A stretch of 64,000 nt of DNA, taken from Crambe crambe. Its lineage: Eukaryota > Porifera > Demospongiae > Poecilosclerida > Crambeidae. The position numbers and the translations under genes were made by a program. Of the stretch, positions 8,731-60,300 are shown piece after piece; position 1 is the stretch's first letter; each line of letters begins with the position of its first letter. Below the pieces are notes generated by a model, which saw only the letters and a list, made by a program, of their open reading frames with translations, was not told where the DNA came from and searched no databases. The stretch is from NCBI GenBank assembly GCA_963924555.1, contig OZ004584.1, positions 1,363,001 through 1,427,000 of the forward strand, in the 5' to 3' direction.

Positions 8731-8734
8731 ATGA

Positions 8735-10450: not shown

Positions 10451-10489
10451 GATCCCATTAATTCATTATAGATTTAAGGGCGTTTTATC

Positions 10490-11385: not shown

Positions 11386-11399
11386 TGAGTAGCTAACAC

Positions 11400-15592: not shown

Positions 15593-15720
15593 TCTTCAAA
15601 ATAACTGTAGTTATAAATTAGCAGAGCAAGTATCACAATAAAGTGTTAATCCTTGCTGGATTATGACATTGAGTATTTCATGTCTCTCTTTTATACCATA
15701 GGAGGAACATTCCAACAAAT
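15593..15720 (-). promoter_or_regulatory. Conserved upstream cassette with TATA-like box
   Basis: TATAAAAG on the minus strand is at 15688-15695, about 96 bp from the ATG. The sequence is identical to the copy-1 promoter region at 10320-10450. Confidence 0.5.
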
Positions 15721-26787: not shown

Positions 26788-26829
26788 GGCAATTGTAGTT
26801 GGAGTTCAAAACTAATAACCAGAATGATT

Positions 26830-33800: not shown

Positions 33801-34652
33801 TTATTGCACATAAAGCTGCAGGAAACTTAGTAGCACGATTTCATTAGAAGTGGGCTGATCGCCACAGATTCTCACTTCAATATCATCAGAGGTGGGGGCA
33901 GAGAGAGACACATTGAACCACGGAAGATTGTTGAAAGTGCAACAGTTGGTGGTGCAGTCCATAGCATCCCACAATGCACCATTGTAGTCACCATCACAGA
34001 AGTAGTCATTGCCGACAAATGAAGGTGGTAAGGGAGCAAATGAACGATCCTGATTATCACAGGGGCAGCGAAAAGTCCCACCATGGCCAGCAGCAAAAGA
34101 CCAAACATGTTGTCGAGGGGATCCATGGGTCACACTGACACCATCCACGTATGGTCCATTAATGTTTGGAGAACTCCTTAAATTATTCAATTCTGCGAAA
34201 GCATCGACTGAATTGGAACTATATCCTATGGCTCGCCCACAAATGCGACTGTAAGTCACACCAGAGGAAGGAAAAACTGTTCCTGGGCAGGATTGAGGTG
34301 TGGCAGCAAAGCATGACCTTGCTGGTGATAAAGCCATTGTCCAAGAGGAAGGACATTGCTGGGACATATTCATCATATTAAAGTGAACCACTTCAATCCA
34401 TTCCCCACTACCACAATCAGGAACCACTGATTTTAAAGAGATACGAATAGATTCACTGATATTCCTTCTAGCAGACTCAAGATTATCACTTGAAGGACAG
34501 GATCCATGACTATCTCGGGTTCCATTTATAATAACAGGATCAACACGAATAGGAAGTGGACCATTGAGGGGTGGTTGGGCCAAGACTGCTGTGAGCAGAG
34601 AGACACTGATAACCAGCAAACTACTAGCTACAAGTAACTTAGGTTCAGGCAT
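33801..34652 (-). CDS. Secreted 13-cysteine protein, array member (intact)
   Basis: The 283-residue single-exon frame has signal peptide MPEPKLLVASSLLVISVSLL followed by TAVLA. The linker (QPPLNGPLPIRVDPVIINGT) is intermediate between the two subgroups. The core keeps CGRAIGYSSNS, YVDGVSVTHGSPRQHVWSFA, RCPCDNQDRSFAPLPPSFVG, the Cys-Cys pair and TSDDIEVRICGDQ, with the 13 cysteines. It is the last member of the minus-strand array; a spliced plus-strand gene follows. Likely secreted; function unknown. Confidence 0.85.
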   Translation of the reverse strand: MPEPKLLVASSLLVISVSLLTAVLAQPPLNGPLPIRVDPVIINGTRDSHGSCPSSDNLESARRNISESIRISLKSVVPDCGSGEWIEVVHFNMMNMSQQCPSSWTMALSPARSCFAATPQSCPGTVFPSSGVTYSRICGRAIGYSSNSVDAFAELNNLRSSPNINGPYVDGVSVTHGSPRQHVWSFAAGHGGTFRCPCDNQDRSFAPLPPSFVGNDYFCDGDYNGALWDAMDCTTNCCTFNNLPWFNVSLSAPTSDDIEVRICGDQPTSNEIVLLSFLQLYVQ

Positions 34653-34659
34653 CCTAGCA

Positions 34660-35350
34660 ACTATAAATATTAGCAGAGCAGCAAAAGTACATGTATCAGT
34701 GTGTTACTGTACTAGCCTGCTACAGAGGACAACAAGAATTCAGGGGTGTATTGCTGTAAAAAGCAAATGTGTAAAACTCATTTTTAGGTTACTAGAGCAA
34801 CTAAGATAACCCAAAAATGGACACATTGATTTGTATCCAGGAAGTTTTGTGTGGCATACACAGATGGCTGGCTAACCTCTACCTGGTATACAACTGTCAT
34901 TGGCCACATAATTATTATTATCATTTGGAGAGAAATTGCACAATGTTCTTAGAAACCCAAAGGCTGTGAACCTAGGGCACTACTATTAGTGCCTGAGAGT
35001 TTCATGATACACTTATTAGAACATAGCAACCACTACTATCCTGTAGGACAGCAAGACAACAGGACAACTGTATTGGAATAGAATGCTCATCTCCACATTA
35101 AATTCATCTTCACTCTCTGTCTATATACCCTAGAAATTTTGTTATAAAATTAATTTTAATTACCATTCAAGTGAATTAATTACCAGTGCAAAAAATTACA
35201 AGTGAGTTTTAATTATGAAGCCTTATTGAATTGTTATTACTTCCTAATTATACAGTAGCTATAATCATGAATTTTTGGTGCTGCAACTTACACACATTTT
35301 TTGTTAGTGGTATTCCATAAATACCACATAGTACTTCCCACAAAGTCTAT
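34660..35350. other. Spacer, nothing recognised
   Basis: AT-rich non-coding sequence with no gene or repeat that I can support. Confidence 0.4.
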
Positions 35351-36196: not shown

Positions 36197-39100
36197 GCCT
36201 ACTCCCAACCAGCTGCTGTCACTAGGCAAGCAAGTGATTGTACTTGGAACGAGCCGGATTGTGAATGACAGTGTTTTCCTTGATATTTCAATTCCACCCT
36301 GGGACAAAGACTCGATGAAGTATTTCACCCCTTACCCAAAGTGTGGGGGGTATGGACCGGGACAGTGGTATACCATGGGAGGAGAAAGCCAAGTCGTTGG
36401 ACAAATCTGTGAGTAGGTACTGGTAACATAATTGTTTGTGGTGTTATTATCAGGTTCATGGTTATTTTTAGTCCTGCATGAGCATGCTTTTTTTGTTCCA
36501 CCCATAAAGACTTTTGATTGCTATAACTCTTTTCCAAAAGCACGATACTAATGGAGCTGTTTATCCCTTGCATCCATGGCAGCTCATGTCATGTGTTATT
36601 GACTAATGTGTCCACATTTACTGCACACAGACAACGGACCAGCAGAGGAGGGGCTGATAGTGACGGAAAACTTCCCCTATGTGATGCAATGCCCTGTCAG
36701 CATTTCCAAGTTGGACCTTGTGTCCCCTGCACTCCTCAATGCATCCATATGGAGCTGGTTGGATGGATATTCCAGTGAGTTCGATACACATAATGGCACA
36801 TTTTATAATGACACAGCTACTCTTAATGGCAACAGGTCCAATTGTATGGAGTCACAGAACATTAAGCCTTGACTTGTTATGTGTACATGTTGGTCCCTTG
36901 TTTCTGGGAAATGATCGATGTAATTTATTTTCCTGGTGTTCCAAGTAACAAAAATTAGCTAATCACTTGAAAATTAATTGCCATGTAGCTATAAAAGCTA
37001 ATTATATGATAGCCATAACAATGAAAATAAATCCACGAAGACCTGAATAGCTATAGCTAACATGACATTTAACGGAATATTTACAGTAAGAGTTTGACCA
37101 GAGATCGTCCAGACATTTTGAATATTGGAGTAATAAGGGGGATTCCCTTTTGATTCTCCACTATTTGTATGTATACCTGCAATGGTCAACCACAACCAAC
37201 TTAGTGGTTTAAGGATGGTAATGTGTGTTTTTATCTGTGATGACCTTTTACCTTTATCTTAACCAAAAATTAGAAATCACGGAATTTATATCTTTATTAG
37301 TTGCAAATTTGACGAATGAACAGTGTGCAGTGATGAGGGCGGGGCTGAAGGGAAGATGGACTACAGCTTCTTGTAACTCAACACTCTGCTACCATGCCTG
37401 CAGGAGTTCCTCTAACTCCTTTCAAGTTGCCCTCAGCGATTCTCCAAAACAGTTTAATGTCATCAATGTGAGGAGAATTTACAGTAGTTATTATTCTAGC
37501 TAGCTAGCCTACTGTATTGTAGCTAATATGTATTTGGATGTGGCTATACTAAATTTTTGATAACATTATGGGGAAATGGGGTTAATAAACTGTGATCAAC
37601 TACAGCATTTTGCTATAAATTATGGCTTATAATAATTGTAGAATGATTCATCATGTCATGTGACAGTCCCAGCTAAGGTAGAAACATCCATTTTTCATAG
37701 CTCTCTCTAGCAGGGGCGGATTTAGAGAATGTTCGACTATATTCATTCGAACCCCCCTTTTCAGAAGACTTCAAGTGCTCAAGTCATCGATCATCGAGTC
37801 GACGACGAGACTCTCACTGTGACAGCAGCGCAGCCATCGCGCAGCGAATTCATTAATAATATTCATTAGCACTATCTAATTAACGCACATTCACGCACGT
37901 GTACTGATTGATGGTCGATATTTTTGCTTGCTATGTCTCGTCAGAGGAAACTCGACTCCTTTTTTGTTCAGCCTTGGTAAGTACTGACCATGATCCTAGT
38001 GTGGAAGGATTACCTAGTGTAGCTAGCTAGTCTAGTAGGTCTATTCTAACCAACCTAGTCTAGGCAGCAGCTAACCTAGCTACTAACCTAGCTATGAACC
38101 TAGTACTGTAGTCTAGGCAGCAGCTAACCTAACTACTAACCTAGCTATGAACCTAGTACTGTAGTCTAGGCAGCAGCTAACCTAACTACTAACCTAGCTA
38201 TGAACCTAGTACTGTAGTCTAGGCAGCAGCTAACCTAGCTACTAACCTAGCTATGAACCTAGTACTGTAGTCTAGGCAGCAGCTAACCTAACTACTAACC
38301 TAGCTATGAACCTAGTACTGTAGTCTAGGCAGCAGCTAACCTAGCTACTAACCTAGCTATGAACCTAGTACTGTAGTCTAGGCAGCAGCTAACCTAGCTA
38401 CTAACCTAGCTATGAACCTAGTACTGTAGTCTAGGCAGCAGCTAACCTAGCTACTAACCTAGCTATGAACCTAGTACTGTAGTCTAGGCAGCAGCTAACC
38501 TAGCTACTAACCTAGCTATGAACCTAGTACTGTAGTCTAGGCAGCAGCTGACCTAACTACTAACCTAGCTATGAACCTAGTACTGTAGTCTAGGCAGCAG
38601 CTAACCTAGCTACTAACCTAGCTATGAACCTAGTACTGTAGTCTAGGCAGCAGCTAACCTAGCTACTAACCTAGCTATGAACCTAGTACTGTAGTCTAGG
38701 CAGCAGCTAACCTAACTACTAACCTAGCTATAAACCTAGTACTGTAGTCTAGGCAGCAGCTAACCTAGCTACTAACCTAGCTATGAACCTAGTACTGTAG
38801 TCTAGGCAGCAGCTAACCTAACTACTAACCTAGCTATGAACCTAGTACTGTAGTCTAGGCAGCAGCTAACCTAGCTACTAACCTAGCTATGAACCTAGTA
38901 CTGTAGTCTAGGCAGCAGCTAACCTAACTACTAACCTAGCTATAAACCTAGTACTGTAGTCTAGGCAGCAGCTAACCTAGCTACTAACCTAGCTATGAAC
39001 CTAGTACTGTAGTCTAGGCAGCAGCTAACCTAGCTATGAACCTAGTACTGTAGTCTAGGCAGCAGCTAACCTAACTACTAACCTAGCTATGAACCTAGTA

Positions 39101-40285
39101 CTGTAGTCTAGGCAGCAGCTAACCTAGCTACTAACCTAGCTATGAACCTAGTACTGTAGTCTAGGCAGCAGCTAACCTAGCTACTAACCTAGCTATGAAC
39201 CTAGTACTGTAGTCTAGGCAGCAGCTAACCTAACTACTAACCTAGCTATGAACCTAGTACTGTAGTCTAGGCAGCAGCTAACCTAGCTACTAACCTAGCT
39301 ATGAACCTAGTACTGTAGTTTAGGCAGCAGCTAACCTAGCTACTAACCTAACTACTAACCTACGTAGCTATGAACCTAGTACTGTAGTCTAGGCAGCAGC
39401 TAACCTAGCTACTAACCTAGCTACTAACCTAACTACTAACCTACGTAGCTATGAACCTAGTACTGTAGTCTAGGCAGCAGCTGAGCTGCTATTTAGCTGA
39501 AAATTATACTTTGTACTTGTAGCAAGCGTAGGAAGTCTGATTGTGATGCTGCTGAGGCTACTACATCTAGCCCTGACCCATCACTCTCCACTGAGATGAT
39601 TACATCTTGTGCTAGCGAATGTAGTAAATAGATTCAAATTAAAGTGTAATAGAAGAATAAATCATACCATTGAATCATTTGTTCTCATGTCATTTTTACC
39701 TACCATTCATTTCATCTATACTTATTCCATCTATGATCATCTATGATTGAGCTTTTTAACTACACATCAGCTTTGCCAAAATGGGCGTGGTTATAAAAAA
39801 GTGGGCGTGGTCCTGCAAAATTTTTCACACGCACACATAATGATAAGAACCCCCTTTTCCAATTTCTAGATCCACCCCTGCTCTAGCATTACTCATGATT
39901 GCTGGAGTTGAAATTTATTAGAGATAGTCCAATTACAATAGAAGCACTTGTTTGACCAAGAACAGATTATTCCATTTCTACCAGGGACTTTATTTGGTTC
40001 TGATAAAAGACACCCCGAAAGAGGACAAACCTCTAGGTCATACCACTGTATTACCAATCTCTCTCACTCCCTCCCTCCCTCCCTCCCTCCCTCCCTCCCT
40101 CCCTCCCTCTCTCTCTCCAGTGCCCAGTTGGATTTGATTTTACTCTTCCAATTAATGGCTACCAGAACTGGCAACTGTACTCAGCTATGATGAAGCTGAA
40201 TTCTTCCTCTAACAGTGCTTACTGCACCTGGCTGAATACTGATCAAGTGATCGCAGCTTTTGGAGGAACTCCCATGATTTTATAA
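36197..40285 (+). CDS. Spliced gene with a C-type-lectin-like domain (3' exons)
   Basis: Four exons fit in phase: 36197-36408, 36631-36774, 37301-37467 and 40121-40285. Introns have donors gtgagt, gtgagt and gtgagg, and acceptors cacag, ttag and ccag. Across the second junction the product reads SIWSWLDGYS-IANLTNEQC, then GLKGRWTTASC and CYHAC: the WxDG, GxW, Cys and Cys pattern of the end of a C-type lectin fold. The first exon (VLGTSRIVNDSVFLDIS, GPGQWYTMGGESQVVG) is not recognised. The last exon (CPVGFDFTLPINGYQNW to FGGTPMIL) is copied near 50.44 kb. Upstream exons and start were not found. The third intron (2.65 kb) holds a hAT-type element and a CCCT run by its acceptor. Confidence 0.65.
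37933..39631 (+). CDS. Residual two-exon transposase N-terminus (50 residues)
   Basis: Exon 1 at 37933-37976 encodes MSRQRKLDSFFVQP and ends at a gtaagt donor. Exon 2 starts at 39523 after a ttgtag acceptor and encodes CKRRKSDCDAAEATTSS and onward to a stop at 39629-39631. The phases fit. RKLDSFF followed by a KRRK basic cluster is typical of the start of hAT transposases carrying TTF/MYM-type fingers. A polyadenylation-like aataaa follows near 39656. Only the N-terminus remains; whether it is expressed is unknown. Confidence 0.5.
38057..39480 (+). repeat. 53-bp tandem array (about 26 units) within a transposon intron
   Basis: The unit starts gtctaggcagcagctaacct and contains tactaacctagctatgaacc. 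The spacing is 53 bp, with A/G variants of a few bases. Nearly every unit carries TACTAAC, identical to the strong branch-point consensus. The array lies wholly between the donor at 37977 and the acceptor at 39522 of the element's small gene. One unit near 39.02 kb is shortened, and the last units are rearranged with ctacgtag insertions. Confidence 0.95.
40069..40118. repeat. (CCCT)n polypyrimidine tract at a splice acceptor
   Basis: A CCCT run followed by CTCTCTCTCCAG leads directly into the last exon of the lectin-like gene. It probably serves as, or has expanded from, the polypyrimidine tract. Confidence 0.85.
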
Positions 40286-41818: not shown

Positions 41819-43117
41819 CTAGCTCTCACAATTTTCTTCTTCCTCATATTCTAACCTGTTTAGGGTGACTATCCTTTCCTCCATGCACTTCATGACCGTA
41901 TGGTCCAGTTCCATAAAGTACTTATTGTGAAAGAGAGAGTTGGGCTGCTGCACATGTACTTTCACCACCTTTGGCAGGTCGACTGCTGTGATGATGCATA
42001 TGTTGTGTACCACTGTCCCAAGGCAAGTAATTGAATTTTTTCTCTCAGGTTTGAACCAAAACGCTTTTGCGATGTAAAAATAGTGATCGATGTGTTTGTC
42101 GTATCCTCCTGGTACATGAGGAAGCATATATACAGTTGCATAAAAATGCTCTTCTGAGTATCTGCACATTTTGAAGAACTCACGAAACTTCCTCATGGTT
42201 CTATTAAACACGAGAAATCTTGCAAATTTAACTGATATTGCATTGTATGATGAACTCTTGTAAAATGCACTGTCATTAAATGAAGGTGGTGCTAACTGTA
42301 AGAGTTTGAGGGAATAGTTCTTAACACTCTTCTTCATTCGATATTCAAACTCTCGTGCTGTGAGTTTGTGTGCCATTATGGATGAAGATCCATTTAGGTT
42401 TATGAGTCTCTTCACCATCTCCCTGTTGGTCATCAGGGGAAGCTCTTTCCCACACAAGTTGATCACATACTTCCATTTGTACTTCTCTTTGGCTCTGAAC
42501 TTGACAAGATCAGTCATACAGCTCATTTGAGCTTCCATAATGGTCTCCTTTCCCCACACCACGTTGATCAACTTTGAAGGAATAATGATGTTCTCAAAAC
42601 AGCTAGCAATTTTTCGAAAGAAAGCTTTGTGTGGAGATTTGGCATCACAGTGGATACAGTAGGAGTTTTGAGGTCTGTAGAGGAGACGCAGCAATCTGAG
42701 TACCTGTTGGGGATTATCGTACACTACAAAGGTGAATGCTATTGGGAAAGACCTCTCTAATTTAGAGTTATACAAGTTGTTGCTGAAAGAATCTCTAAGC
42801 CAGGAACAGTTCTGCATCTTTCTCATTAATGCTTCATCTGTTAGGGCATTTCTCCATCCTGACACCAGCGACATTGTTCTATTTATCTCTCTCTCATCTC
42901 CAGATATTACTCTACTACAATTCACTGCTACTTCAGGTTCAACAGAGGTCACGTAGCCTCTATCCCAAGCCCTGAACCTTCCAGGGGATACTCTACACAT
43001 AGCTCTAGTTTCTCCATACTGAAATACTGTCCGATAATAATTAGTGTCAAACATTGTCAGAAATAGCACAACTAGTGGCAGCATACAAAGTAGGAACAAT
43101 GACTTTGTTATACTCAT
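41819..43117 (-). CDS. Core-2/I-branching-type beta-1,6-N-acetylglucosaminyltransferase (GT14), copy A
   Basis: The intronless 432-residue frame encodes a type II Golgi enzyme that adds beta-1,6-GlcNAc branches to O-glycans or polylactosamine. A short cytosolic tail and membrane helix (about 6-22) are followed by a stem with N-glycosylation sites. The GT14 domain runs from about 124: FPIAFTFVV, LLYRPQNSYCIHCDAKS, IASCFENIIIPSKL, VVWGKETIMEAQMSCMTDL, WKYVINLCGKELPL. The motif YSEEHFYATV (Glu323) matches the SPDE-type site holding the catalytic Glu of C2GnT. The C-terminal CLGTVVHNICIITAVDLPKV and HNKYFMELD also fit the family. The acceptor cannot be told from sequence. A similar copy lies 2.5 kb away. 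Confidence 0.9.
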   Translation of the reverse strand: MSITKSLFLLCMLPLVVLFLTMFDTNYYRTVFQYGETRAMCRVSPGRFRAWDRGYVTSVEPEVAVNCSRVISGDEREINRTMSLVSGWRNALTDEALMRKMQNCSWLRDSFSNNLYNSKLERSFPIAFTFVVYDNPQQVLRLLRLLYRPQNSYCIHCDAKSPHKAFFRKIASCFENIIIPSKLINVVWGKETIMEAQMSCMTDLVKFRAKEKYKWKYVINLCGKELPLMTNREMVKRLINLNGSSSIMAHKLTAREFEYRMKKSVKNYSLKLLQLAPPSFNDSAFYKSSSYNAISVKFARFLVFNRTMRKFREFFKMCRYSEEHFYATVYMLPHVPGGYDKHIDHYFYIAKAFWFKPERKNSITCLGTVVHNICIITAVDLPKVVKVHVQQPNSLFHNKYFMELDHTVMKCMEERIVTLNRLEYEEEENCES

Positions 43118-44185
43118 CCTCGTCTACTCTAACTCTATAATCGTTAGCTATTGCTAGCCATAACTAGTTCTATGCAGAAAGACACCATGATGTATGTAGC
43201 TATATTATCATTAAAAAAGACACTCTAGTATGACATATAGCTAGCTAGTAGTTAAGCTATCAATCACTGGAAGTCAAAACTATAGCTAGAGATAGTTGTA
43301 AGTAGTGTGACTTGGAGTATTGATATTATTATGATACATCTTTATTTCTTACTATCAGCTCCTCGATCAGTCTTGCTTTTATACTTTTTTTGTTAGCTAG
43401 CTATTTCGAATCTTTTTTCACATTGCCCACAAATTTGATATAGCTAGCTATACCATTTAAATGTCACAATTAGATAAACTATATCCACTTATTAAAATAC
43501 ACAATTCAATATAGCTAAGACACAGACTATCAGTATATGTAAACATCTCATTGAAAGCATTTTTCCGATTTATTTTTGTAGCTATATGTATCACACATGG
43601 TGTGTATAACAGACTGTTTGTGAAAGCACAATGCGGACAATTTGGCATCTAGCTATTCTCAGAAGGGAAACGTCTTATTATATAAGGCTATATATACTGC
43701 TATTCATTATACTCGCATGTCTTTCCATTATGCACATTACAAGATTGTAGGGCTATAAATAATGTGCATGCTTGCAGTTCCATCATAAAGAAAACTCAAC
43801 ATTTAATACCACCCACCCACATTCTCCTGGACAGGGAACTAAATTACTATTTGGAGTTGGTAAGTGTGAATTCCACTTCATAATTCACAGTACAGCTGCA
43901 GTCACATCAACAATGTCAATTGCAATGCTTTTGATATCATAGCTTGCCTGAAAATTCAATGACTTTGTATAGCTTACTTAAAAGACTGGAGTAACATTGC
44001 TACTAGCACTGGATCTGCCAGGAGCTATAGCTTCAGGCTCAGGTTCAACTTCTTAAATGCTGCATGAAAATGCTGCTCACAATAATGCTCAAAATGCTTC
44101 AGCACACCTAAAATGCTCAAGAAAAATGCCAGCATAATTAATTATTGAGCACCAGCTAATAGCGATTGTATGTAGCTGTGAAAAT
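43118..44185. other. Spacer between glycosyltransferase copies A and B
   Basis: No gene is seen. About 43.80-43.90 kb resembles 30.81-30.92 kb (dispersed repeat). Confidence 0.45.
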
Positions 44186-44367: not shown

Positions 44368-45666
44368 CTAGCTCTCACAATTTTCTTCTTCCTCATATTC
44401 TAACCTGTTTTGGGAAACTATCCTTTCCTCCATGCACTTCATGACCGTATGGTCCAGTTCCATAAAGTACTTATTGTGAAAGAGATAGTTGGGCTGCTGC
44501 GCATGTGCTTTCACCACCTTTGGCAGGTCGACTACTGTGATGATGCATATGTCGTGTACCACTGTCCCAAGGCAACAAATCGGATTTTTCACCTCGGGTT
44601 TGATCCAAAATGACTTTTCTACAAAAAAGTAGCGATATTTAGGGATGTGTTTGTTATATCCGCCTGGTACATGAGGAAGCATGTATACAGTGGCATAAAA
44701 ATGCTCTTCTGAGTATCTGCATAGTTTGAAGAACTCACGAAATTTCCTCATGGTCCTACTGAACACAAGAAATCTTGCAAATTTAACTGATATTGCATTG
44801 TATGATGGACTCTTATAAAATGCACTGTCATTAAATGAAGAGGGTGCTAACTGTGAGAGTTTGAGAGTATAGTTCTTCATACTCTCCTTCATTCGAATAT
44901 TAAACTCTCGTGCTGTGACTTTCTGCGCCTTTACGGATGAAGATCCTTTTAGGTTTATGAGTCTCTTCACCATCTCCCTGTTGGTCATCAGGGGAAGCTC
45001 TTTCCCACACAAGTTGATCACATACTTCCATTTGTACTTCTCTTTGGCTCTGAACTTGACAAGATCAGTCATACAGCTCATTTGAGCTTCCATAATGGTC
45101 TCCTTTCCCCACACCACGTTGATCAACTTTGAAGGAATAATGATGTTCTCAAAACAGCTAGCAATTTTTCGAAAGAAAGCTTTGTGTGGAGATTTGGCAT
45201 CACAGTGGATGCAGTAGGAGTTTTGAGGTCTGTAGAGGAGACGCAGCAATCTGAGTACCTGTTGGGGATTATCGTACACTACAAAGGTGAATGCTATTGG
45301 GAAAGACCTCTCTAATTTAGAGTTATACAAGTTGTTGCTGAAAGAATCTCTAAGCCAGGTACAGTTCTGCATCTTCCTCATTAATACTTCATCTGTTAGG
45401 GCATTTCTCCATTCAGACACCAGCAACATTGTTCTATTTATCTCTCTCTCGTCTCCAGATATCATTCTGCTACAATTCACTGCTACTTCAGGTTCAACAG
45501 AGGTCACGTAGCCTCTATCCCAAGCCCTGAACCTTTCAGGGGGTACTCTACACATAGCTCTAGTTCCTCCATACTGAAGCACTGTCCAATAGGCATCAAA
45601 CATTGTCAGAAATAGCATAACTAGTGGCAGCATACAAAGTAGGAACAATGACTTTGCTATACTCAT
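44368..45666 (-). CDS. Core-2/I-branching-type beta-1,6-N-acetylglucosaminyltransferase (GT14), copy B
   Basis: The intronless 432-residue frame has the same architecture as copy A: a membrane helix near 6-22, a stem, then the GT14 domain with CIHCDAKS, WKYVINLCGKELPL and YSEEHFYATV. Residues from FPIAFTFVV to MVKRLINL are identical to copy A, while copy B differs from both A and C just downstream (KGSSSVKAQKVTAREF versus NGSSSIMAHKLTAREF). That pattern suggests a conversion tract shared with A. It has its own flanks and complete motifs, so it should be active; its acceptor is unknown. Confidence 0.9.
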   Translation of the reverse strand: MSIAKSLFLLCMLPLVMLFLTMFDAYWTVLQYGGTRAMCRVPPERFRAWDRGYVTSVEPEVAVNCSRMISGDEREINRTMLLVSEWRNALTDEVLMRKMQNCTWLRDSFSNNLYNSKLERSFPIAFTFVVYDNPQQVLRLLRLLYRPQNSYCIHCDAKSPHKAFFRKIASCFENIIIPSKLINVVWGKETIMEAQMSCMTDLVKFRAKEKYKWKYVINLCGKELPLMTNREMVKRLINLKGSSSVKAQKVTAREFNIRMKESMKNYTLKLSQLAPSSFNDSAFYKSPSYNAISVKFARFLVFSRTMRKFREFFKLCRYSEEHFYATVYMLPHVPGGYNKHIPKYRYFFVEKSFWIKPEVKNPICCLGTVVHDICIITVVDLPKVVKAHAQQPNYLFHNKYFMELDHTVMKCMEERIVSQNRLEYEEEENCES

Positions 45667-46980
45667 CTTTATCTACCCTATTAAAATTTATAGTAAGCTA
45701 TTATATTGCTAGTCATAGCCAACTGATCAATGTTTCACTAGCTATATGCATGTAGCTATTGGCAAATAAAAAAAAGCACTTGTATAGCTAACTGTATCGG
45801 GATAGGTTTTATTTAGAGGCTATGGCTAGGGCTATGGGCTATCATAACTACAGAGGCATGCAGGTTGGTTACACAGGTATGTATGCACACAGAAACCGTA
45901 TCATGACTCATGTCAACTGCAATTGCTAAGTGCTGTTGAGTCAGACATTAAGGTGTAATTATTGTGTTAATTAAAAGCTGGGGGACCTATGGCTATCAGA
46001 AAACAGGTAGCTATAACTACATAACTATTAATAAAAATTTTACAGGTTTCTGTTTACAATTAGCCATTGACATTAATTTTGGTGAGTGGATGTTGATAGC
46101 TAGTGTCTATTAGCTAAGTTGCATTTATATTAGCTAAATCCACAAACAATTGTGCACAAACATAGTCTTGTAATATTCTTTGTGTGTCATATTAATTTGG
46201 TCAAACTCACTTCTCAGTGTTTGTGTGTGCTATTTCTTCCCTCTGTATTGCGTGCTTTATATGTATCCATGTCACTTGCCGGTCCATTAATGCTGGTGTT
46301 AACCATGCAAGAATATACAGATTGATCAAGTGATTCACATGCAATGTATAGCTAGGAGCCTTGTACTGTAGAAATAAGTGCCAGTGAACTTACTATAAAT
46401 TCATTATAGTAAGAAAGAAGAATACTTCTTACTTAGCTAGCTGTTAATTCTTCATGCAAGGTCAGTAGGCCGGAGCCAATTATTTTGATCAAGCAAACAG
46501 AAAACTGTAACACAACTCTAGCTATACCCCTGCAAACTGTCCCAAATTAGTAACTATAAAGCAATTTTGCTCTTCCAATGATGCAAATTCAGACAAACAA
46601 AACCAGTTAAAAGAATTTTTGCGGGAATTGTAACAATAAATATAATCATGTATATTATGAAAGTCGGATTTGAAGAAATTGACACCATCTATAGCTAGCT
46701 AGCTATAATCCATCTTGCACTGTTTTTTTTTTGTTTGTTTGTTTTTTTGTCTGTTTTTTTATTATTATTATTTTTTGGCTTGTAACTACCTTCAAGATCA
46801 TAACATATGTAACACAGTGTAACTGCTAACTGTGATTATCTTTAGTTATCGAACCTGTGACCATGTATATAGCTGTATGTAAAAAAATTTCAAAACAGAC
46901 TGTCAGACTCTAGTTTGAAAAACATTCAAATCTCAAATTTCATCAAGGCTCATTACTTCTAAACTGACATCTTCCACTGC
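45667..46980. other. Spacer with duplicated block
   Basis: 46310-46650 repeats 31370-31800. A T-rich and ATT-rich run lies at about 46720-46775. No gene was found. Confidence 0.5.
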
Positions 46981-46982
46981 CA

Positions 46983-48044
46983 ATGAAAATGAGTAAGAAA
47001 GTGGATGCTGGCGATAATACAAGATACAACATTCATGAAAATGAATGCTATGCAACTACGATGTGTGTCTCAGTTGTAAATGAAGAAAAAAAGAAAATCT
47101 TCTCAAAGAAGAAATGCTTCTGCATTTTAATGATTGCAGTTGTAGTCATTTTACTTATCATTGCAGTCTTTATCTGCATTCATTGAGATCTCAGATTTGA
47201 AGAATACTTCTGTCATGTTGAAGTCAAAGATTCAAAATGTATCATCATCTATTCCAAAATTATTAGCAAATAGATTGGAGAGCTTAGGTTTGTATCCAAG
47301 TCATCCTGCACCTTCGTGTGCTGCTATTCTCCAGTTTGCTCCCTCCTCTCCCTCAGGTCACTACTGGATCAGGTCCTCCAATGGCTCTGCTGTGTGTGTG
47401 TACTGTGACATGACCAGGACTAGAGTGGTTGAGCTGGATATGAGTAACACATCCCAGCAATGTCCTTCTTCTTGGAATAATTATGACTTCATCACCTGCA
47501 AAATCATGCTTTGCTTCCACACCTAGAACCTGCCCAGGAACAGTTTTCCCCACCTCTGGTGTGATTTACAGTCACGTTTGTGGACGAGCCATAGGGTACA
47601 GTTCCGACTCACCAGATGCCTTTGCTGAATTTTGGGATTTAAGAAATTCTTCTACCACCATTGATGATCCATATGTGGACGGTATCAGTGTGACTCATGG
47701 ATCACCACGACAGCACATTTGGACTTTTGCTGCTGGCCATGGTAATGACAGTTACTATGGATTTCGCTGTCCCTGCAATTTCTGTACACATTCATTTTCT
47801 CCCTTTCCCCCTTTTCCCCCTTCATATGTCGGCAATAATTACTTCTGTGATGGCGACTACAATGGAATGATGGACTGCACCACCAACTGCTGCACTTTCA
47901 ACAATCCTCCATGGTTCAGTGTGTCTCTCCCTGCCCCCACCTCAGATGATATTGAAGTGAGAATCTGTGGTGATGCATAATATCTCTAATGAGAATGTCC
48001 TGCTAAGCTTTCTGCAGTTGTATGTTTATTCCAACTTGAATTAG
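46983..48044 (+). pseudogene. Membrane-anchored relative of the secreted 13-cysteine family, broken
   Basis: The first frame gives a short basic N-terminal tail and a membrane helix ILMIAVVVILLIIAVFICIH. In the next frame a coiled-coil-like stretch (SDLKNTSVMLKSKIQNVSS) is followed by a fibrinogen-like motif, SGHYWIRSSNGSAVCVYCDM, then VVELDMSNTSQQCPSSW. A third frame carries CGRAIGYSSDS, YVDGISVTHGSPRQHIWTFA, NNYFCDGDYNG, the Cys-Cys pair and IEVRICGD. The last piece (NISNENVLLSFLQLYV) is in yet another frame, and a few residues of ALWDAMDC are missing. At least three frame changes make it a pseudogene in this assembly. It is the one long plus-strand copy and shows a fuller domain layout. 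Confidence 0.8.
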
Positions 48045-48924: not shown

Positions 48925-50248
48925 GGGGGCTCCGACATCCCGCCCACGCGCTTGTTTTGCAGGTTGCTAGGGACTGATATCGAGACTACTGACACTTGCA
49001 GAGATAAGCTACAAAGACCACAGTGGAGGACTTATCTACGGTCGCTGATCTCCCAAGAACTAGGAAAAACGGGGCAGTTACCGAGAGGCTAGCACCGCTT
49101 GAAGCTAAAAGGACTAAAATTAATACTTCTTTTTTTGTGCTAAACTTACAATGTTGAAAATAGTTTCACATCCTTCCTTTGCATGCTTATAAGACAACTA
49201 CGGATCGAATTGTCTATATATAGATCTAACCTAGCTTCCTAGATACACGAATTCCTAGCTTTAGAATGAAGTGCTGAAAGCGCTGATCACTTCAGTTTTT
49301 GAAGATTTCCTAATCCCATCCGTAGCTGTCTACCCCAGACCATGAGGAAACAACATGCCAAGTACGGACACTTCTGGATTTACTGGGGCTGTGTATCGGT
49401 ATACTTGCAGACGCCACCCCAGCCCCACCCACTGGCAGGATGCCAATTCTTTCTACCGTTGGTAGCAAAATAAAAGCTTTTGCTATAGGGACCAGTCAGT
49501 GATATGGGGCTCCCTCAATTTTCCAAGCTTCCTAGCAAAATAAAAGCTTTTGCTATAGGGACCAGTCTGTGATATGGGGCCCCCTCAATTTTCCAAGCTT
49601 CCTAGCAAAATAAAAGATTTTGCTATAGGGACCAGTCAGTGATATGGGGCCCCCTCAATTTTCCAAGCTTCCTAGCAAAATAAAAGCTTTTGCTATAGGG
49701 ACCAGTCAGTGATATGGGGCTCCCTCAATTTTCCAAGCTTACTAGCAAAATAAAAGCTATAGGGACCAGTCAGTGATATGTGGGCCCCATTTCACTGCGG
49801 GAGCCCCAAAATACTAGCGCTTTAAGACCCCCCTGGGGGCCCCCATTTCACTAGTGATATACGGCCGGGGGGCCCCATATCACGGGGGGCCCCATATTGC
49901 TCCTACACCGGAGGTCTGCTAGCCCAGACTAGCTCTGGAGTTAGTCTCGCTCGGGACAGACTCTTCCGGTGACACTGGCTCTGGAATAGGCTCTGAATCT
50001 GGCACTGGAAATAGCCTACATTATTTTTCTTCAGGGAGTGCTACCTATATTAGCTATTATAGCTACATGCAATTGAATGAATTATTTACTATTATTACTT
50101 TTCCTGCTTGTATGGCTCATGTACTACCTGCACACCCTACATTCCTAACCTTCTTGTGGTTTTTCAGCTAGTTTTCCACAATGATGATTCTCTTATTAGG
50201 GCTTATCAGTATTTAGTTGTGCACGCGCGTAGTCATGTCGGAGCCCCC
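48925..50248. mobile_element. Non-autonomous TTAA-flanked element
   Basis: The left end gggggctccgacat and right end atgtcggagccccc are exact inverted repeats. Both are flanked by TTAA (48921-48924 and 50249-50252), the target of piggyBac- and Kolobok-type elements. The interior has a 70-bp tandem repeat and G/C-rich blocks. The right third matches the dispersed repeats at 10490-10840 and 15764-16113. No transposase is seen. Confidence 0.8.
49460..49785. repeat. 70-bp tandem repeat, about 4.7 units
   Basis: The unit starts agcaaaataaaagcttttgc and includes gatatggggc and ccaagctt. It recurs at 49463, 49533, 49603, 49673 and 49743, with few differences until a shortened last unit. Confidence 0.95.
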
Positions 50249-51086: not shown

Positions 51087-52600
51087 TTATTTGTACGTAC
51101 ATGTATAGAGGTAGCTATTCTCTTCTTCCCGCTGTTCTTTCTTGTCACCATTCTGGTCTTCGTCTTCATTTTCTGGTATGGTTTGTGGATTCAGATGCAA
51201 GTCGGTACACCCTCTGCATTCGTAGCTAGCTGCACATGGTCTTCTTGTTTTCTGGCAGCTGCATCTCCTGCTGTTGCAGCTTGACTTATACTGGCATCCC
51301 TTCTCCAAAAAATCGAGTGTGGACTTTATTTTCTTCTGCACATCATCAGCTTCCCAATCTATGGAATATCCTGTGTCACTCACATGCCAGCCTTGTGTTT
51401 CAGGTGGAGCCAGTCCCTCGTACTGATCAGCTGAGGAGGCAGAGTTGTTCCACATTTTGGATACCCAGCAGGATCTTGCCCAATGTCACCACAATGAGGT
51501 GATTGTTGGTGGCCTCTGGTCTTCACTTGTTACACGAGTCACTCTTGTATTATACTCCCCAGCCTAGCTGAGGAAGTAGGCCAAGTCTGGATCATGCAGA
51601 AATGCTGATATGAGCTTGTGGATATTAACATATTATCAAAGTGGGTTGTGTGGCAAATTTATTTGTACCCCAATGTTGTACACGTCAGTGTCAGGGGCAT
51701 AAATGAGGATGTATTTATGTTTTGTTTGCATTGCATGCCTCCAAAACCTGCATGTCTACTTCCAGAGCATTAGACCTGAATTGAGATGTACATTGAGGTA
51801 AAGATTCACATGAGATTGACCATGAATCGTCTTGATTCTTGCCAGAAAAGCAACCAGCTAATATCAGTACTTGGTTTTCACACAGTAGATTTTTTTTTGC
51901 TGTGCACAAGTAGACAGAGCCTAATGTTCCTATTAGAAATCATTTACACTGCCTACATTCCAGGTATTCTCTCCATGGTCTTGGAATTTATGATTGTGAG
52001 GTCAACACAGATATGTGTGTAGCTATATGTTCTCCTTGTATCTTTGAGCATGTTTGCAAATGTTAGGGTTGAAGGGAAGCCAATCGGGGTGGTCAAATAC
52101 CAAAATTTAATGAACTTCGTTAGTTCCACTTCTATAGCTAATGTGGGACTGAAAAGCTACTAACCCGCTACAATGTGCCCATGTCAACACCATTCTCATC
52201 ATCTCTTCCCTGGGTTCCTCAAGTGACAATTATTGATGCAATGTTTGCCACACACATTAATCCTTTACAGCAACATAAGACAGTTGAGCAGTATGCTCAT
52301 TTTTTGTTCCGACAGTTCATACTACAGTTGCATTGTGTGGACTACACCCACTTCTGCTAATGCCCTAGGTAGTAGGGAATACTGTTCTTCACTTTCATCA
52401 CACTGTAGTCCAGTCTGATTGCACCAAGCTAATCTTCTCAGGTATTTGTCATATTCCTTTCTTCCTTTTCCTTCTGTGATAACTGTCTTTTTTGGTGGTG
52501 CCATGGTTAGCAACCTCTTGTGTCTTACGGCTGCTTTGTCAACAGACACAATGGGGACCTGGAGAATATGGTGAGTGATATATAATTGGTGTAGACTCAT
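51087..52600. pseudogene. Scrambled relic of a CXC-protein transposon
   Basis: Three pieces match the protein of the 52.87-56.25 kb element. A minus-strand C-terminus (51087-51455) has the cysteine run GCQYKSSCNSRRCSC and PCAASYECRGC. A minus-strand piece at about 51620-51715 has LIYAPDTDVYNIGV. A plus-strand piece at about 52175-52340 has WVPQVTIIDAMFATHINPL and VEQYAHFLF. The mixed strands show internal inversion. Another minus-strand frame (52322-52600) is unassigned. Confidence 0.65.
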
Positions 52601-52865
52601 TGGCCAATGACTCTGGCATTGACTAGATCATCTGTAGTGGCCTTGGTCCATGTAAATACATTAACCAGCCCTCTGTTGTGTTCTATGATGGGAGTGAAGA
52701 GCTGATGCTCACTTATTAGTGAGCACATTTATTCAACATTCTCTTCCCAGTGCTTGGTGACAGTCCAAAATTTTATTATTCTGGATGGTAGAGGTGCTTG
52801 GAAATAATTGTGATGTTAAGTGCTTTTATGCGGTAGGAAAAAAAGTGAGTGGTTTTCTTCAGATA

Positions 52866-55800
52866 CAGTCCGACGTCCGCAGGCTAGGCCAGCGTACCGG
52901 AAGTGCTATTACCTAATACAATTTTACTTGCACGGGATTCGTCACTATTCGACCTTTGACCCCACATTGTTGCTTGGATACTTCCTCTTTCCAGTTCATT
53001 ATTTCGATACAGATGGGCGGAGTTGACTCAGCCGTAGCAACTACGGGTTAAGAGTGCATTGACATTCATTTCTGCGATAAATTGAACCCTGCAGACAATA
53101 ACCGTTTGTTTTATAGTGCATTTACTGTTTTTCTACTCCGAGTTCTTTTCAGTGGGGCCGTGTTTTTTTTTGCACAGTACACTGGAAATTTGAAGGTAAA
53201 TATGAATGATTGTACCAATAATTAACATATAGAACAGCATAAAAATTGTGTCCACCCACTTCTTTATAATGAAAGCACACAATTGTTTAAAATACATCAC
53301 TAGTGCATGTGCATTGATCAGCTAATCGAATGGTAACATTGCAGCTGTGTGTACAATCAATCTATAGTGTAGACTTTCCAAGTAGACACTTCATAATCCT
53401 GTCAAAAAGAACACAACAAAAAATTAATATTACTACTGCAATAATATTCACAGGATGACAAGTTCAAGTGAGTCAGAGGTGAAGGTGGGGACTAGTTCAA
53501 AGGGACCATGTATTTTGTGTGGAAATGCTTCCATGAAATGCAAATATTTCAGAAATCTAAGCCAACATTGATTTTTCAACATTCACCTGAGGGGACAGCA
53601 TGATGACTTCGTATGTTATAAATGTGTGAAACAATCGGAGCGTAACACCCACAAAACTGAATTTCATAACTGGAAAAGAGAAAACAGAGGACACTAACAT
53701 CAAAGCTATGCTGGACGGAATACTTCAGCATGGGATGTTTCATGAGTGTGATGAAAACCAAGGGCTTTGGAATATTTTCACTGATTATAAAGCTACAGCA
53801 GAGCAGTCACATGACATGCTAAACTACAGAGAAATTGGCCAGGTAGGGTTTGAGACATACGTTTCTGGCAAGATCCTCAAGCAAGTCAGCACAAAGGCTC
53901 CTTTAAGGGAAAAAAAGTTGTGTACATTCACTGTTTCAAAAAAGGAGAAACAGAGGGTGAAACAGATTGACAGGGAGAGGAAACTCACTCAGTGTTTCCT
54001 GAAATGTCACCTTTCAAGGCTTGTTAACCCAGGACAGGAACAGATAGACCCAGAATTACTCTGTGGACCAATATCAGCGATCCCAAGAGCATTTACAGAT
54101 TCAAATAGGCTTCCCTACAAATCAGCCAAACACACTGCTACAGCCTACCTAGAGAGGCGCTACAGTAGCATACCAGTGGTCCTCCACACTCTGCCATCTA
54201 ACTGGATTCCTGACTCAGTCATACTAGAGGGCATGTTCATGATACAAACCTATCCTCCTCTTTCCCACATGGAGACCATGGACTCATATGCAAAGCTGCT
54301 ACTACAGAAATATGTATGTCCTCATTTATTTGCAGGGGCAACAGAAGTCCATATCGTATTTGACAATCCTAGCTCACAAACTGAGTCTCCAAAAGAGATA
54401 GAGCAGTTTAGAAGAGACCAAACAGCTACTACAGAAACCATGATTGTGCAGTGTTTCAAAGTTCTTCCAAAACACCTCGAGACTGGAAATCAACCCTTGG
54501 CTGCAGACAGTGCAAGAACAATCTTATCGTCTATGTTGCATCTGAGATGATCCGTCTATCTCCACCCTACCTCAAAGGTACACAAGCAGTCATAACTAAC
54601 ATTGGGACACATGCACTCAGAGTGTCTGCTAATTCTACGACCCCAACACAGAATCACACACTCAGTTCGAATGCCAATGAAGCTGATTTAAGGGTGTGGC
54701 TTCACTGTCAATGCTCTTATGGGACAAAAAAGCTCATTTTCAGTCCAGATACTGATGTCTACCACATTGGACTCACAATTCCTCGGGTTATCCCATCATG
54801 TGACATCATGATACAATTGAACAAGAGTACAATGGAGGATCAAAAATATATTCACCTCAATGGATTACTCCAAGCTCTCGATACTGATCCAGACCTAGCA
54901 ACTACCAATTGTGCTACACGTCCACAAATACTGACAGGATGTGACTACATATCATACTTCCAGGGCATAGGAAAAATAAGTTTTTTGGCTACCTTTTTTC
55001 AACATGTCAACTTTATTGCTGGGGACCCCAATCTTCCTGGGTCTATAGGCACTGTAACTCTACTTCCTTCCAACCCAGAGTTATACTCATTCCTTCACCT
55101 TGTTGGATGTGCATATTTCAAAGCCAATGTCTCCGGCTTTAGGCATCATACACCTGAAGCTATGTTTTATTCCATTCAAGGAGCTATCACACCACTAGAC
55201 CAACACTCAAAATGGCTAGCTGAAATCAGACAGGTTGTATGGGAACGTGCTGAGAGTGAAAACAAAATGTTACCTTCTACAGAGGCATTGATATTACATT
55301 GGACAAGATGTCTATGGGTAATTGAAATGTGGCACCAGTCATTACAGAATGTATTGGATTTACCGAGTAAGTTGGATTAATAATTTCAGTATTGGTACCT
55401 ACATTGACAGGTATAATTGCATGTACAGGTCTTGAAAAATTTGGCTGGAAAAGGAGTGATGGCAAGCTTGAAGTGATCTGGGAAGTGCCAGAAAACATAG
55501 CAAAGGTCCAACAAAGAATCCAATATACATTCTCTGGCTGCAAGTGTAAAAAGGGGTGTGGAACAAGAAGATGCAAATGCATCAAAGAAGGGAAAAAGTG
55601 TGGACCAGGATGCAGATGCCTCTTATGCACTAATGTGAATCGAGTGAAGGTACCTGAATTGCCACAAGAGCTGAGAGCATTAGAAGCCGAGATGACGATG
55701 ACAGACAATGAAAATGAACTTGTTGAAGATAGCGATGATGACTTGAGTGAGATAGACGTGGACTCTGAAACAGAACAAATAATCCAATCAGTATTTGGTA

Positions 55801-56252
55801 GTGACTCAGAAGCAGAGGACAGCTACCTAGTAGACTTTGTGATGGGGCCATTTTTTTTTGCAAGAACTACAGTTAAAATACTACCACTAACATGAATGAA
55901 TTATAGTAATATACATTCTACCACAAACTTAACTGTGTCCGGTCAATCATCATGGAGAAGATCGCAGTAGAGAACCCGGGGTTAGGGCGCCATTAATCCT
56001 TCAAAAGCACCTTCTACGCACTTTTCCTGATTTCTAGTCTTACTTTTACCTCTAACCACTCCATCAGTAGGTAGTAAGACTATCGTTAGCTAGAATCAGC
56101 GCGAAGATCATCCCAGCAGAGTCTTCTGGAACAGGCAGCGGTCCAAAAAGATCAGCACGCTTTACAAACAGGAAGCTCACCTGACACGGCTATGACGTCA
56201 TTCTACGGATGCAAGTAAATTTGAGTGGGCGGGGACGCTGGCCTGCGGACTG
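52866..56252 (+). mobile_element. Transposon with inverted ends, 4-bp target duplication and a CXC-domain protein
   Basis: The left end (from cagtccgacgtccgcaggct) and the right end read in reverse (cagtccgcaggccagcgtcc) are imperfect inverted repeats extending about 80 bp, each with tttacttgca inside. Both are flanked by GATA (52862-52865 and 56253-56256), read as a 4-bp target duplication. The 3.4 kb element carries one plus-strand protein-coding region (about 53455-55895). A 3-4 bp duplication occurs in Academ-type elements among others, but I cannot assign a superfamily from sequence alone. Confidence 0.75.
53455..55895 (+). CDS. CXC-motif transposon protein (at least two breaks)
   Basis: The N-terminus has a CILCGN zinc-finger-like start near 53505. 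The long frame from 53708 holds LLCGPISAIPRAFTDSNRLP, WIPDSVILEGMF and VHIVFDNP. The next (to 55380) holds CRQCKNNL, SPDTDVYHIGL and TGCDYISYFQGIG, and the last (from 55429) a CXC (tesmin/TSO1-like) cluster, CKCKKGCGTRRCKC and CGPGCRC, then an acidic tail. A 62-bp intron (55367-55428, gtaagt to tacag) fits in phase. One frame change lies near 54.47 kb, and stops lie in the N-terminal part (about 53.57-53.70 kb). I recall the same order in many-copy sponge, cnidarian and mollusc proteins. The Asp-rich SPDTD and GCDY motifs suggest a PIN/FEN-like nuclease fold; this is inference. Confidence 0.7.
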
Positions 56253-56529
56253 GATATGGCTGTGTTGACCGTAACACAGCCATTTTCATGTCATGATTGA
56301 CGCACATTTCGTGTGCCTCACCGAGTGCAACTGTATGACCCACTCCATCCTGTATCTTTACAGTGAACCCACCAGCTCTGAAGCAAGTTAGCTAAGATAA
56401 TTTATGTTTGTCCCTTGTACTGTTGTAGCTCTACAATTATGAACCTTTTGGAAATATGCAAGTTGACTACTATACACATAATTGCAGCGAGCGAGCGAAG
56501 CGAGTGAGCTGACTCTCTTTGAAATTTTA

Positions 56530-57330
56530 ACTAGGGTATGTTCGTGTAACATATTCAATCGGCGAGCGAAACAGTTGGTGAAAGTCAGACTTATTGGACT
56601 AAGCCTAAGATATTGCAGTGGTTGTGGCAGTGTGGCAGCTGCATACACACTGACAGGAGGCTGTATAATGCTTACCACAAGCACTTAGAAAGCCATGTGC
56701 CTACAATCCACTTAGCGCCTCTATGACAAAATGCTGTAGAAAGCAATAAGCTCTAGCTATTTGTTCTAAGTGCTATGGGCACGTTTCATTTGTGGGGTCA
56801 AAGGTCAAACAAACGTGCGCATGCGTATTATAAGCTATGCCCGCTAGCTATGACGTACGTATATATATATATATATATATATCTCAAGCTCCCGTTGACA
56901 TGACCAGAGAGTGGCTCGCTTCGCTCGCCAAGTATATGTCTACACTCCAAAATGCCCCAGGCGTACGTACGTACGTACACGTGTCGTGCAATAGTAGCGC
57001 CCCTGCGCGTGCATTTATGCGCATGCTCCAGTTGTAATTGCTTGATTGATTTCTACATTGCTTTGTATATAGCATGGTGGATAGTAGGGTTAGGCTTATC
57101 TAAGTGGATTGTAGGCACTAGACATATCTAAGTGCTTTGTGGTAAGTACTTAGCTTTCTATGCATGCAGCTGCCTGCCACTTAGCTACATAACACAACAG
57201 CAAAGCACAAATGAACTATCAGCTCAACATTTCTACAGCCTTTTGGGCAGCAGGTACAAGAGGCTTATCTAAACGGCTTGTAGGCACTAGGCTTATCTAA
57301 GTGCTTTGAGGTAAGCATGTATGCAGCTGC
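56530..57330. repeat. Dispersed repeat with inverted halves
   Basis: The left half (gctgcatacac, atgcttaccacaagcactta, gtgcctacaatccacttag) recurs inverted at about 57.08-57.18 kb and again near 57.26-57.34 kb. Related copies lie at 30.03-30.29 and 25.61-25.68 kb. An AT run lies at 56861-56881 between the halves. No coding sequence is supported. Confidence 0.6.
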
Positions 57331-57417: not shown

Positions 57418-58170
57418 CTACAGATACTCAACAGCAAATGAAAATCGTTGAAGAATACTTGCTTGCTCGCTTGCTGTCAACTGAATGTTGAACATTGCCC
57501 TAGTTATAGCTAATGTATAAACTTTTCTACATATGGAGCATTTAAATAAACTTTTATCGTATGACCTAATCAAAATGCTGGGATAGGACTGCATGTCAGC
57601 TATGTGGTCTGGGATCAACTTCTGGTAACATGGGCAATCATATGCAGAAAAAAGGATTTTAAACTAAACATCCGCAGATCCCAGTTTGACATTCTGATGG
57701 ACAAGAAGAAGTGGACGTAGCACAGGCAGTCGTTTAGCACAAAGTTGGACCACAGGTGCCAAGTATCATCGGCTGCTGCTTGGTCCTGTATGTACTGTCT
57801 AAAGGATTGCATATAGCAAGCATCTCATCAGCTTTACTCTGTACAGTTAGCAACAGATCATGTGCTGTGGTGGTGTTATTCTCTATGTCTTCATCCATCG
57901 TCTTCGGACTGACATCAGTAAGTAAGTCAGTAGCTGTAAAAGACCTGACCATTTCAATGAACATTGCTTCCCACGATTGAATGAGGAAGGTGGTTATAAG
58001 TTTTGCCATCACCAACCAAAACTATACCCATGGCTGCAAAGCTGCAGATGCTACCTTCTCTTGTACTAATTCTGATACCATGGTCATAGTTTCTTCCGAG
58101 TCAGCATTTTCATCTAACAGTTCCAACACACTCCCTTGGTCTATAGAAACTTTCTGGAGGAAATAGCTAT
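57418..58170 (-). pseudogene. Degenerate mobile-element protein fragment
   Basis: On the minus strand pieces read SVLELLDENADSEETM, FIEMVRSFTATDLL, then DTWHLWSNFVLNDCLCYVHF and NWDLRMFSLKSFFLHM, then IPDHIADMQSYP. The order W..FV..D...Y...F...R..NWDLR..SLK and IP.HIAD matches a multi-copy invertebrate protein family that I associate with mobile elements; I cannot name it. Frame changes split the pieces. Function is unknown. Confidence 0.5.
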
Positions 58171-60300
58171 GTAAATACCTGTTTCTTCAGATGCAATTTG
58201 CTTGCTGTTTCAGTGTCGAGCTCCTGGAACTGTTCCAATTTCAAGTGTTTTCAGACTGGGAATAAGGGGCAGTTCATTTGCTTGATGGCCAATAGTTGAT
58301 GATGTGTACAGGTGCAAGGTTTTCTTCTCTTGAAGAAGTACTGTTGCATTCTGGATACATGCACTGTATATTAGAATGTGACTCTCCCCTCTCTTTTTTC
58401 CACATACGTAGGGACATAGAGTGATTCAGAATGATATTTGCTGGCCTCTATCTTGTGAGCCCCCACACATACAACTCTTAAAATTTCCCCACTAAAATGA
58501 TGTATAAATTTCTTCTCTTCAACATTGAGGTTGCAGTAATGAGCATATTTACCACAGAGAAAACATGGAGGACAATCCTTGGAGGGATGGCAGCTTGAGA
58601 GGTCACACTAGGCCAGTCATTACTGGAACTTGCCATTGTTTTGTGCACTAGAATGGTGATATTCATTATCATTTGTTATTGTACAGTTACCTTGTGGTCA
58701 ACCTTGATCTTACTGATGAGCAGCTGCACATAGTCTCATGCATGCAAAAACAGACCGTTTTGGTAACCCACAGCAATGGAAGCTCAAGAAGCTTAGCGAG
58801 GAATCTATATTTCAAAGAATGGTTTTTCTGGTAAAGTAGTGCATTGCCTAGAACATACTGCAGTTTAAATGAAGGAAACATTGTATGAGAGGAGATAAGG
58901 CCAGAAGTTTGTAGGAGGTGAAGGCTAGCTTTTGTGGTGTGCATTATTTGGATATGCAATTAAACTACCTGTTTTTTAGGGTTTCACGGATGCCTGCAGC
59001 TCGCCTGCTTCATTACAATTTATGTAACGGAGTGAATCCCTTTAATCTTTAATTGAAGGGCTAGAGCGCATGTGCATGCAATGGTTGGAGGCCCTTCGTT
59101 TTTCCACTGCCCCGTGAAAAAAGCGGGCCTGTGTATGACCCGCAAAAAAGCAGGCCTTGGTACGAGGCTAGCATGCTCACCTACGATTGTAGCAATTGCT
59201 TTCCCCTGATGCTAAGTGGTCCCTGGATTATAAGGCTACCCCTTGGGAAAGTGGTCTTACATTGTAGGTTGTCTCTAAAAGGATAAATAAAGGACCAATG
59301 CATTAGAAAGTGGTAGGGGGCATGCTAAGTGCTCAGATGAATTGCTACAACTTTCCAGGAATCCTTGAGTATGACTCAATGATTCCTGGAAAGTTGAATC
59401 AACATAACATAATAATTATAGCAAATACATCACTAGCACTCCCAAGCCGCCTGTTGGCTACACAGTCACCTGTGTAGAGTAACACATACCAGTGTCAGAT
59501 ACCAGTGTCATAGACAGTCAGGCTCTCCCCCATAATAACTGTAACCTGAGTATAAAGAATTTGGAATGCACCCGTATAATCAAATTAATTAGCTATCAAA
59601 ATTAATTATTACCAGTCTAAACCTCATTACTGGACGTAGATGTGTTGGCTTATATTGATCAGGCAAATGCCTGACCTGCCTGGGTCTGACCCTGCGCTAC
59701 CTATGTCTAGGTACTGATGGGGAACCCATCCCAAATGCATCCACAAAATCTACATAGCTAGACATCAGTAATAGTTAAATCCATGTTAGAACTTGGCCTT
59801 TAGGATGGCTGCATCATCAGCTACCAAGCAACTTTAGGGATTTCCAAAAGCACTGAACAATCATGCTCTCTGATATAAAAGCTGCAAGGGCTGGGGGTCT
59901 CTATTATCTATGCGGGAAATGCCTAAAGACCAATGGCTATATACATGTACTTGACCCTAGCAAAGGGGGCAAGAAAAGTCATAAACAGCGAGAACAGAGA
60001 GTACAAAATAATGATGAATTTCATATAGCTTCTGTATCTAGCTACCTGCAAAAAAATTTCCATCAGTAAAACTTAAAAATAAATGCATGGTGTATATCAA
60101 GTCTATGTGTCTGAGGCATCAAGTCTTTTTAAAGACGAACTTGTTCAACACCTGGAGCACTATCAATAAATTTCCAGGGTAGCCCCCCCACACACACACA
60201 CACAAATAGGCCTGGGTACTGGGTACCTGATTTCATGGCTGTCTAGACATGCATGTAAATTTTGGTTTTGGATTTCTATCAAGTAGGCACTTCATACAGT
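58171..60300. other. Repeat-poor spacer with one hairpin
   Basis: No gene is supported. A perfect hairpin (caactttccaggaatc and gattcctggaaagttg) lies at 59349-59396. Possible short frames at 58687-58959 (minus) and 59863-60069 (plus) show no known motif. Confidence 0.4.

Follow-up and report, generated by a model that had tools for sequence, protein, structure and literature searches.

A broken CXC/GCDY gene between paired inverted ends and a GATA duplication in Crambe crambe

In a 64,000-nucleotide stretch of the Crambe crambe genome, which was analysed as a whole and is called the window here, a 3,387-bp unit at positions 52866-56252 is bounded by paired inverted ends and flanked on both sides by an exact 4-bp duplication, GATA. 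The unit encloses one broken gene for a CXC/GCDY protein, and a decayed relative lies nearby. This protein belongs to what we take to be a large, multi-copy family of uncharacterised invertebrate proteins, and the element ends together with the insertion scar suggest that it travels with a cut-and-paste transposon. The reading that we favour, with a probability of about one half, is that the unit is the relic of an AcademX-like class II cut-and-paste element that is transposase-less, was mobilised in trans by a DDE transposase and carries an accessory nuclease. The boundaries of the element are as follows.

52862-52865: GATA target duplication, left copy
52866-52895, plus strand: left inverted end, 30 bp (18-bp core plus insertions of 7 bp and 5 bp)
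52919-52932, plus strand: left subterminal inverted repeat, pairing with 56210-56223 at 93%
56210-56223, minus strand: right subterminal inverted repeat
56235-56252, minus strand: right inverted end, 18 bp
56253-56256: GATA target duplication, right copy

The inverted ends described in the first-pass annotation were found again at the same coordinates, 52866 and 56252, and the 4-bp GATA duplication that it had claimed is present beside them. The left end reads CAGTCCGACGTCCGCAGGCTAGGCCAGCGT and the right end, in its reverse-strand reading, CAGTCCGCAGGCCAGCGT. With the 7-bp and 5-bp left-end insertions excluded, a choice made post hoc, the 18-bp core CAGTCCGCAGGCCAGCGT matches between left and right at 18 of 18 bases, and the two insertions resemble imperfect short direct repeats. 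Similarity continues inward from the ends as a 14-nt subterminal inverted pair. The G+C content of the element (0.416) was like that of the 2 kb on either side (0.415). The unit therefore has the terminal inverted repeats expected of a class II TIR transposon, for which the blind window-wide control was the weaker one, and the expected target duplication, GATA/GATA, at a single site. Scanning the window for the 18-bp core with up to four substitutions allowed gave zero further stretches. The right-end 18-mer had one match in viral contigs, which we took as chance because the 301 surrounding bases were GC-rich and apparently unrelated.

The ends were compared with chance expectation in two ways. 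In an anchored test, 7-mer-anchored inverted ends were sought in the two 1-kb flanks of the gene (52451-53450 and 55896-56895) and in Markov shuffles of them. The best real pair with a 4-bp duplication was the element's own ends, with a score of 19, which none of the 1,000 shuffles reached when the duplication was required (best 18), with 252 of the 1,000 holding some such pair; with that requirement dropped, a score of 19 was reached in 8 of 200 shuffles. In a blind test, the entire window was searched for ends 2.5-4.5 kb apart and compared with 40 Markov-shuffled windows. The element's pair ranked third of 90, two real pairs scoring higher, and six of the 40 shuffled windows yielded a pair with a duplication scoring at least 19. 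Thus, the ends are convincing because the gene is bracketed by them, not when taken alone. Elsewhere in the window, two CTAG-flanked inverted pairs, 7709-11293 and 11298-15407, have the middle CTAG in common and had blind scores of 51 and 37.5, above that of the element.

The gene between the ends lies on the plus strand and was read in the following pieces.

53455-53694, plus strand: N-terminal coding piece with Cys/His pairs, ATG at 53455, TGA at 53569
53630-54550, plus strand: frame-shifted open stretch P0001, with VILEGMF at 54218-54238 and VFDNP at 54356-54370
54412-55366, plus strand: P0002 up to the splice donor, in the first frame, with NEADLR at 54676-54693, SPDTDVY at 54742-54762 and TGCDYISYFQGIGK at 54934-54975
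55367-55428, plus strand: likely intron of 62 bp (44 and 107 bp equally phase-fitting)
55429-55895, plus strand: last coding piece, with a tesmin-like CXC cluster at 55536-55628

The N-terminal piece, with its Cys/His pairs, is broken by the in-frame TGA. Since P0001 (53630-54550) is frame-shifted and P0002 (54412-55380) returns to the first frame, two frame changes are needed, one between about 53640 and 53700 and one near 54440-54490. The element's copy of the gene is not functional as read. The first-pass annotation had called the transposon apparently complete; because of the stop and the two frame changes, this description holds for the ends only and fails for the coding part. The motifs that it had reported, SPDTDVY and GCDYISYF, are both in the coding region. 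Its 62-bp intron was borne out as to the donor at 55367 but is one option of three, because acceptors at 55410 (44 bp), 55428 (62 bp) and 55473 (107 bp) all keep the phase with this donor. No DDE-like gene was found inside the element, and the 9 further ORFs of at least 60 amino acids in or reaching into it had no Pfam match under E 0.03.

The order of acidic motifs in the protein, VILEG, VFDNP, EAD, SPDTD and GCDY..GIG, recalls FEN/XPG nucleases at the level of motifs. In this order it is like the FEN-1/XPG/GEN1 (PIN-like) nucleases; unlike them, P0002 and its pieces had no match in Pfam or the PDB, nor in NCBIfam or PHROGs, at the limits used. P0001 and P0003 gave matches below the cut-off only, for example to Glyco_transf_88 (E 0.11), TCR and Myticin-prepro (E 0.0081). 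A PIN/FEN relationship had been suggested for profile checking, and this check was run with hhalign against four FEN-1 sequences, which we take to be archaeal. The joined pieces scored 20.3, with 5 of 100 shuffles higher, and so were no better than shuffles. In the best local alignment, which had no significance against shuffles, GCDY...GIG fell on GTDY...GIG of FEN-1. The proposed relationship therefore stays at motif level. A single-sequence AlphaFold prediction of P0002 alone had a mean pLDDT of 33.4 and a pTM of 0.21, and the model was unusable. Two bacterial genomes searched for an XPG family yielded none, P0002 matched nothing in phage or plasmid records with the E limit set at 0.1, and neither protein searches of IMG/VR (with P0002, a 100-residue piece and P0001) nor a motif-pattern search there detected relatives of the protein. 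Two viral loci picked out by the motif pattern, L016 and L017, were set aside as apparently unrelated; their PDTDVY regions matched with E values of 0.002 and 0.59, and other matches had E values of at least 4.5.

The tesmin-like CXC cluster named in the first-pass annotation is present as a cluster of cysteines, but its assignment is weakly supported: the cut-out cluster scored 21.2 bits against Pfam TCR (E 3.6e-4), below the curated cut-off of 23.5 bits, and the entire P0003 scored 17.9 bits (E 0.0039). The cysteine spacing is like that of the Tesmin/TSO1/LIN54 CXC domain (Pfam TCR), and the element's protein has one such cluster, at a sub-cut-off score. A weak PDB match to the CXC region of EZH2 (E 0.6) was also obtained. 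CXC proteins have TTYGAA as their target site; no clear enrichment of such sites was seen near the ends, with one in each non-coding end.

A new observation was that a second, decayed relative of the CXC/GCDY protein adjoins the element, as judged from translated matches; we call it copy 2.

51159-52755, minus strand: copy 2, a decayed family member by translated similarity, GCDY block missing; adjoins the element, whose gene lies on the other strand

The three pieces P0001, P0002 and P0003 were compared with the window by tblastn, and 200 shuffles of each query were run with equal settings. With low-complexity masking, residues 18-92 of P0001 matched at 52755-52549 (E 6e-5), residues 13-99 and 94-163 of P0002 at 52011-51579 (joint E 3e-9) and residues 279-310 of P0002 at 51536-51441 (E 0.003), and the CXC piece was not found by tblastn; with masking off, residues 22-96 of P0003 matched at 51401-51171 (E 4e-9). 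Under the settings shared with the shuffles, the E values were 6.9e-5 for P0001, 7e-9 for the two linked pieces of P0002, 0.001 for P0002 279-310 and 5e-11 for P0003. The best shuffles reached 0.013 (P0001), 0.005 (P0002) and 0.022 (P0003), so that none of the 600 was as good; taken alone, P0002 279-310 exceeded the best shuffle only slightly. These matches run colinear with the element's gene. Identity was 122 of 351 aligned positions (35%), nine positions being counted twice in overlapping matches. Acidic residues were identical at 14 of 37 aligned positions, including E90, D92, D113 and D115 of P0002 (EAD and SPDTD, a post hoc choice); E200 of VILEG stands opposite D, and VFDHP was found by eye at 52100-52086. 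The GCDY block is missing, P0002 residues 164-278 corresponding to a gap of 42 bp, and the CXC piece of copy 2 had no TCR match of its own. At the site of the likely intron copy 2 is uninterrupted, the pieces 51536-51441 and 51401-51159 being in the same frame and 39 bp apart. One further match, of P0001 192-229 (IIDAMF) at 52211-52321 on the plus strand, had an E value of 0.013, equal to the best shuffle; if real, it may be an inverted piece of copy 2. A neighbouring relative of this kind fits a multi-copy family.

The nuclease of AcademX elements is of the XPG type. An excerpt of one paper distinguishes two Academ lineages by an encoded helicase versus a nuclease, links AcademX to the nuclease and gives its target duplications as 3 or 4 bp (PMC10045372); excerpts of others place Academ among the superfamilies with a DDD/E transposase (PMC9587614), mention a RecQ helicase in Academ (PMC3627910) and put the mean length of curated bivalve Academ elements, described as DDE elements, at 5,565 bp (PMC10294476). 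As far as these excerpts go, our element is like AcademX in its inverted ends, which a DDD/E element should have, and in a 4-bp duplication, seen at one site, that falls within the 3 or 4 bp given; its gene, a putative nuclease by motifs, may be a further likeness. It differs from Academ in that no DDE transposase was found and in measuring 3.4 kb against the bivalve mean of 5,565 bp. Judged by Pfam matches and ORF content, the element yielded no Academ-type DDE transposase, and for this reason we do not assign it to Academ. The link between this protein family and a cut-and-paste transposon, as first proposed, is supported at one locus by the inverted ends and the 4-bp duplication, and its novelty is weakened by the AcademX passage excerpted (PMC10045372). 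In keyword searches of open-licence papers, none of the matches listed clearly dealt with a CXC protein carried by an element of this kind, and we do not claim that the association is unpublished.

In the mechanism that we propose, a DDE-type transposase from longer relatives elsewhere in the genome would recognise the CAGTCCGCAGGCCAGCGT ends, excise the element and then join it with a 4-bp stagger, and gap filling after the staggered joining would produce the GATA repeats. The enclosed protein would be an accessory, metal-dependent DNA nuclease of FEN/XPG-like type, with VILEG, VFDNP, EAD, SPDTD and GCDY as its acidic motifs and the C-terminal CXC cluster as a DNA-binding tail, and may aid the processing of cut or flapped ends. 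The transposase gene would have been lost from the AcademX-like element or would never have been in it. Should the ends recur around further copies, the family would be transposon-borne and could be removed from host gene counts; the defined ends and duplication would then open to study the role of a nuclease in a DDE element and its capacity, if any, to move DNA alone.

That no DDE gene was found between the ends could be read differently. The CXC/GCDY protein might represent a new type of transposase: a FEN/PIN-like nuclease able to cut and join the ends alone, with no DDE partner. Its standing as the sole recognisable coding region between the ends would agree with this, as would the same acidic motifs retained in the neighbouring relic. 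We nevertheless hold this to be unlikely, because we know of no strand joining by FEN/PIN nucleases and a transposase-less derivative is simpler. The Academ papers, as excerpted, likewise speak against a nuclease acting alone, Academ having a DDD/E transposase (PMC9587614) and the AcademX lineage going with a nuclease (PMC10045372). A host origin was weighed as well, in which the gene would be a decayed host gene or a retrocopy with chance inverted sequence on both sides. It draws on the six of 40 blind shuffled windows that give an equal pair and on the single copy of the ends known from the window searched; set against these are the 0 of 1,000 gene-anchored shuffles and cores that match at every base once the two short insertions are excluded, and the likely intron argues against a retrocopy. 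On balance we find a host origin improbable.

Compatible with the reading as a transposase-less AcademX-like relic, and tentatively entertained as a possibility, is an autonomous form with two genes, one for a DDE transposase and one for the nuclease/CXC protein, copy 2 being such an element split by the 3.4-kb insertion. Copy 2 comes within about 110 bp of the insertion point, and beyond the other end of the element VGDGKTYNHL (58016-57987) and IQSWEAMF (57982-57959) can be read in decayed frames of the same strand as copy 2. These may be strings of a DDE-like family in which they stand some 80 residues apart; if so, the insertion would have split a two-gene element, copy 2. The frames had no Pfam match. 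The strings are nearly adjacent here rather than some 80 residues apart, over 1 kb of other sequence intervenes, and no convincing ends of copy 2 were found in the window, where a 12-nt inverted pair at 50591/58599 uses a string that recurs at 40346.

Other features were recorded in the window, in which Rfam gave no match at gathering thresholds. On the same strand as copy 2, the decayed frames at 57959-58568 (minus) contain PCFLCG, VGDGKTYNHL and IQSWEAMF. A retroelement with a DIRS-like layout at 19031-23177 (minus) has a reverse transcriptase (RVT_1, E 6e-11) and an ORF that resembles tyrosine recombinases, its Phage_integrase match (E 9e-6) falling just short of the cut-off. Repeated ORFs of a cysteine-bearing family, about 300 residues where longest, are alike by eye, and the one tested had no Pfam match.

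2672-3532, 4786-5691, 9792-10322, 14753-15595, 25900-26805, 28815-29688 and 33801-34703, minus strand: cysteine-bearing family ORFs
47444-47980, plus strand: cysteine-bearing family ORF

The ORFs at 41819-43123 and 44368-45672 (minus) are likewise alike by eye, the first being a Core-2/I-branching enzyme (Pfam Branch, E 1.2e-27). Tandem arrays occupy 38056-39362 (53-bp unit, 24.9 copies) and 49463-49788 (70-bp unit, 4.7 copies), and a dispersed repeat occurs at 56546-56752, just to the right of the element, and at 30037-30224, the two copies being 69% identical.
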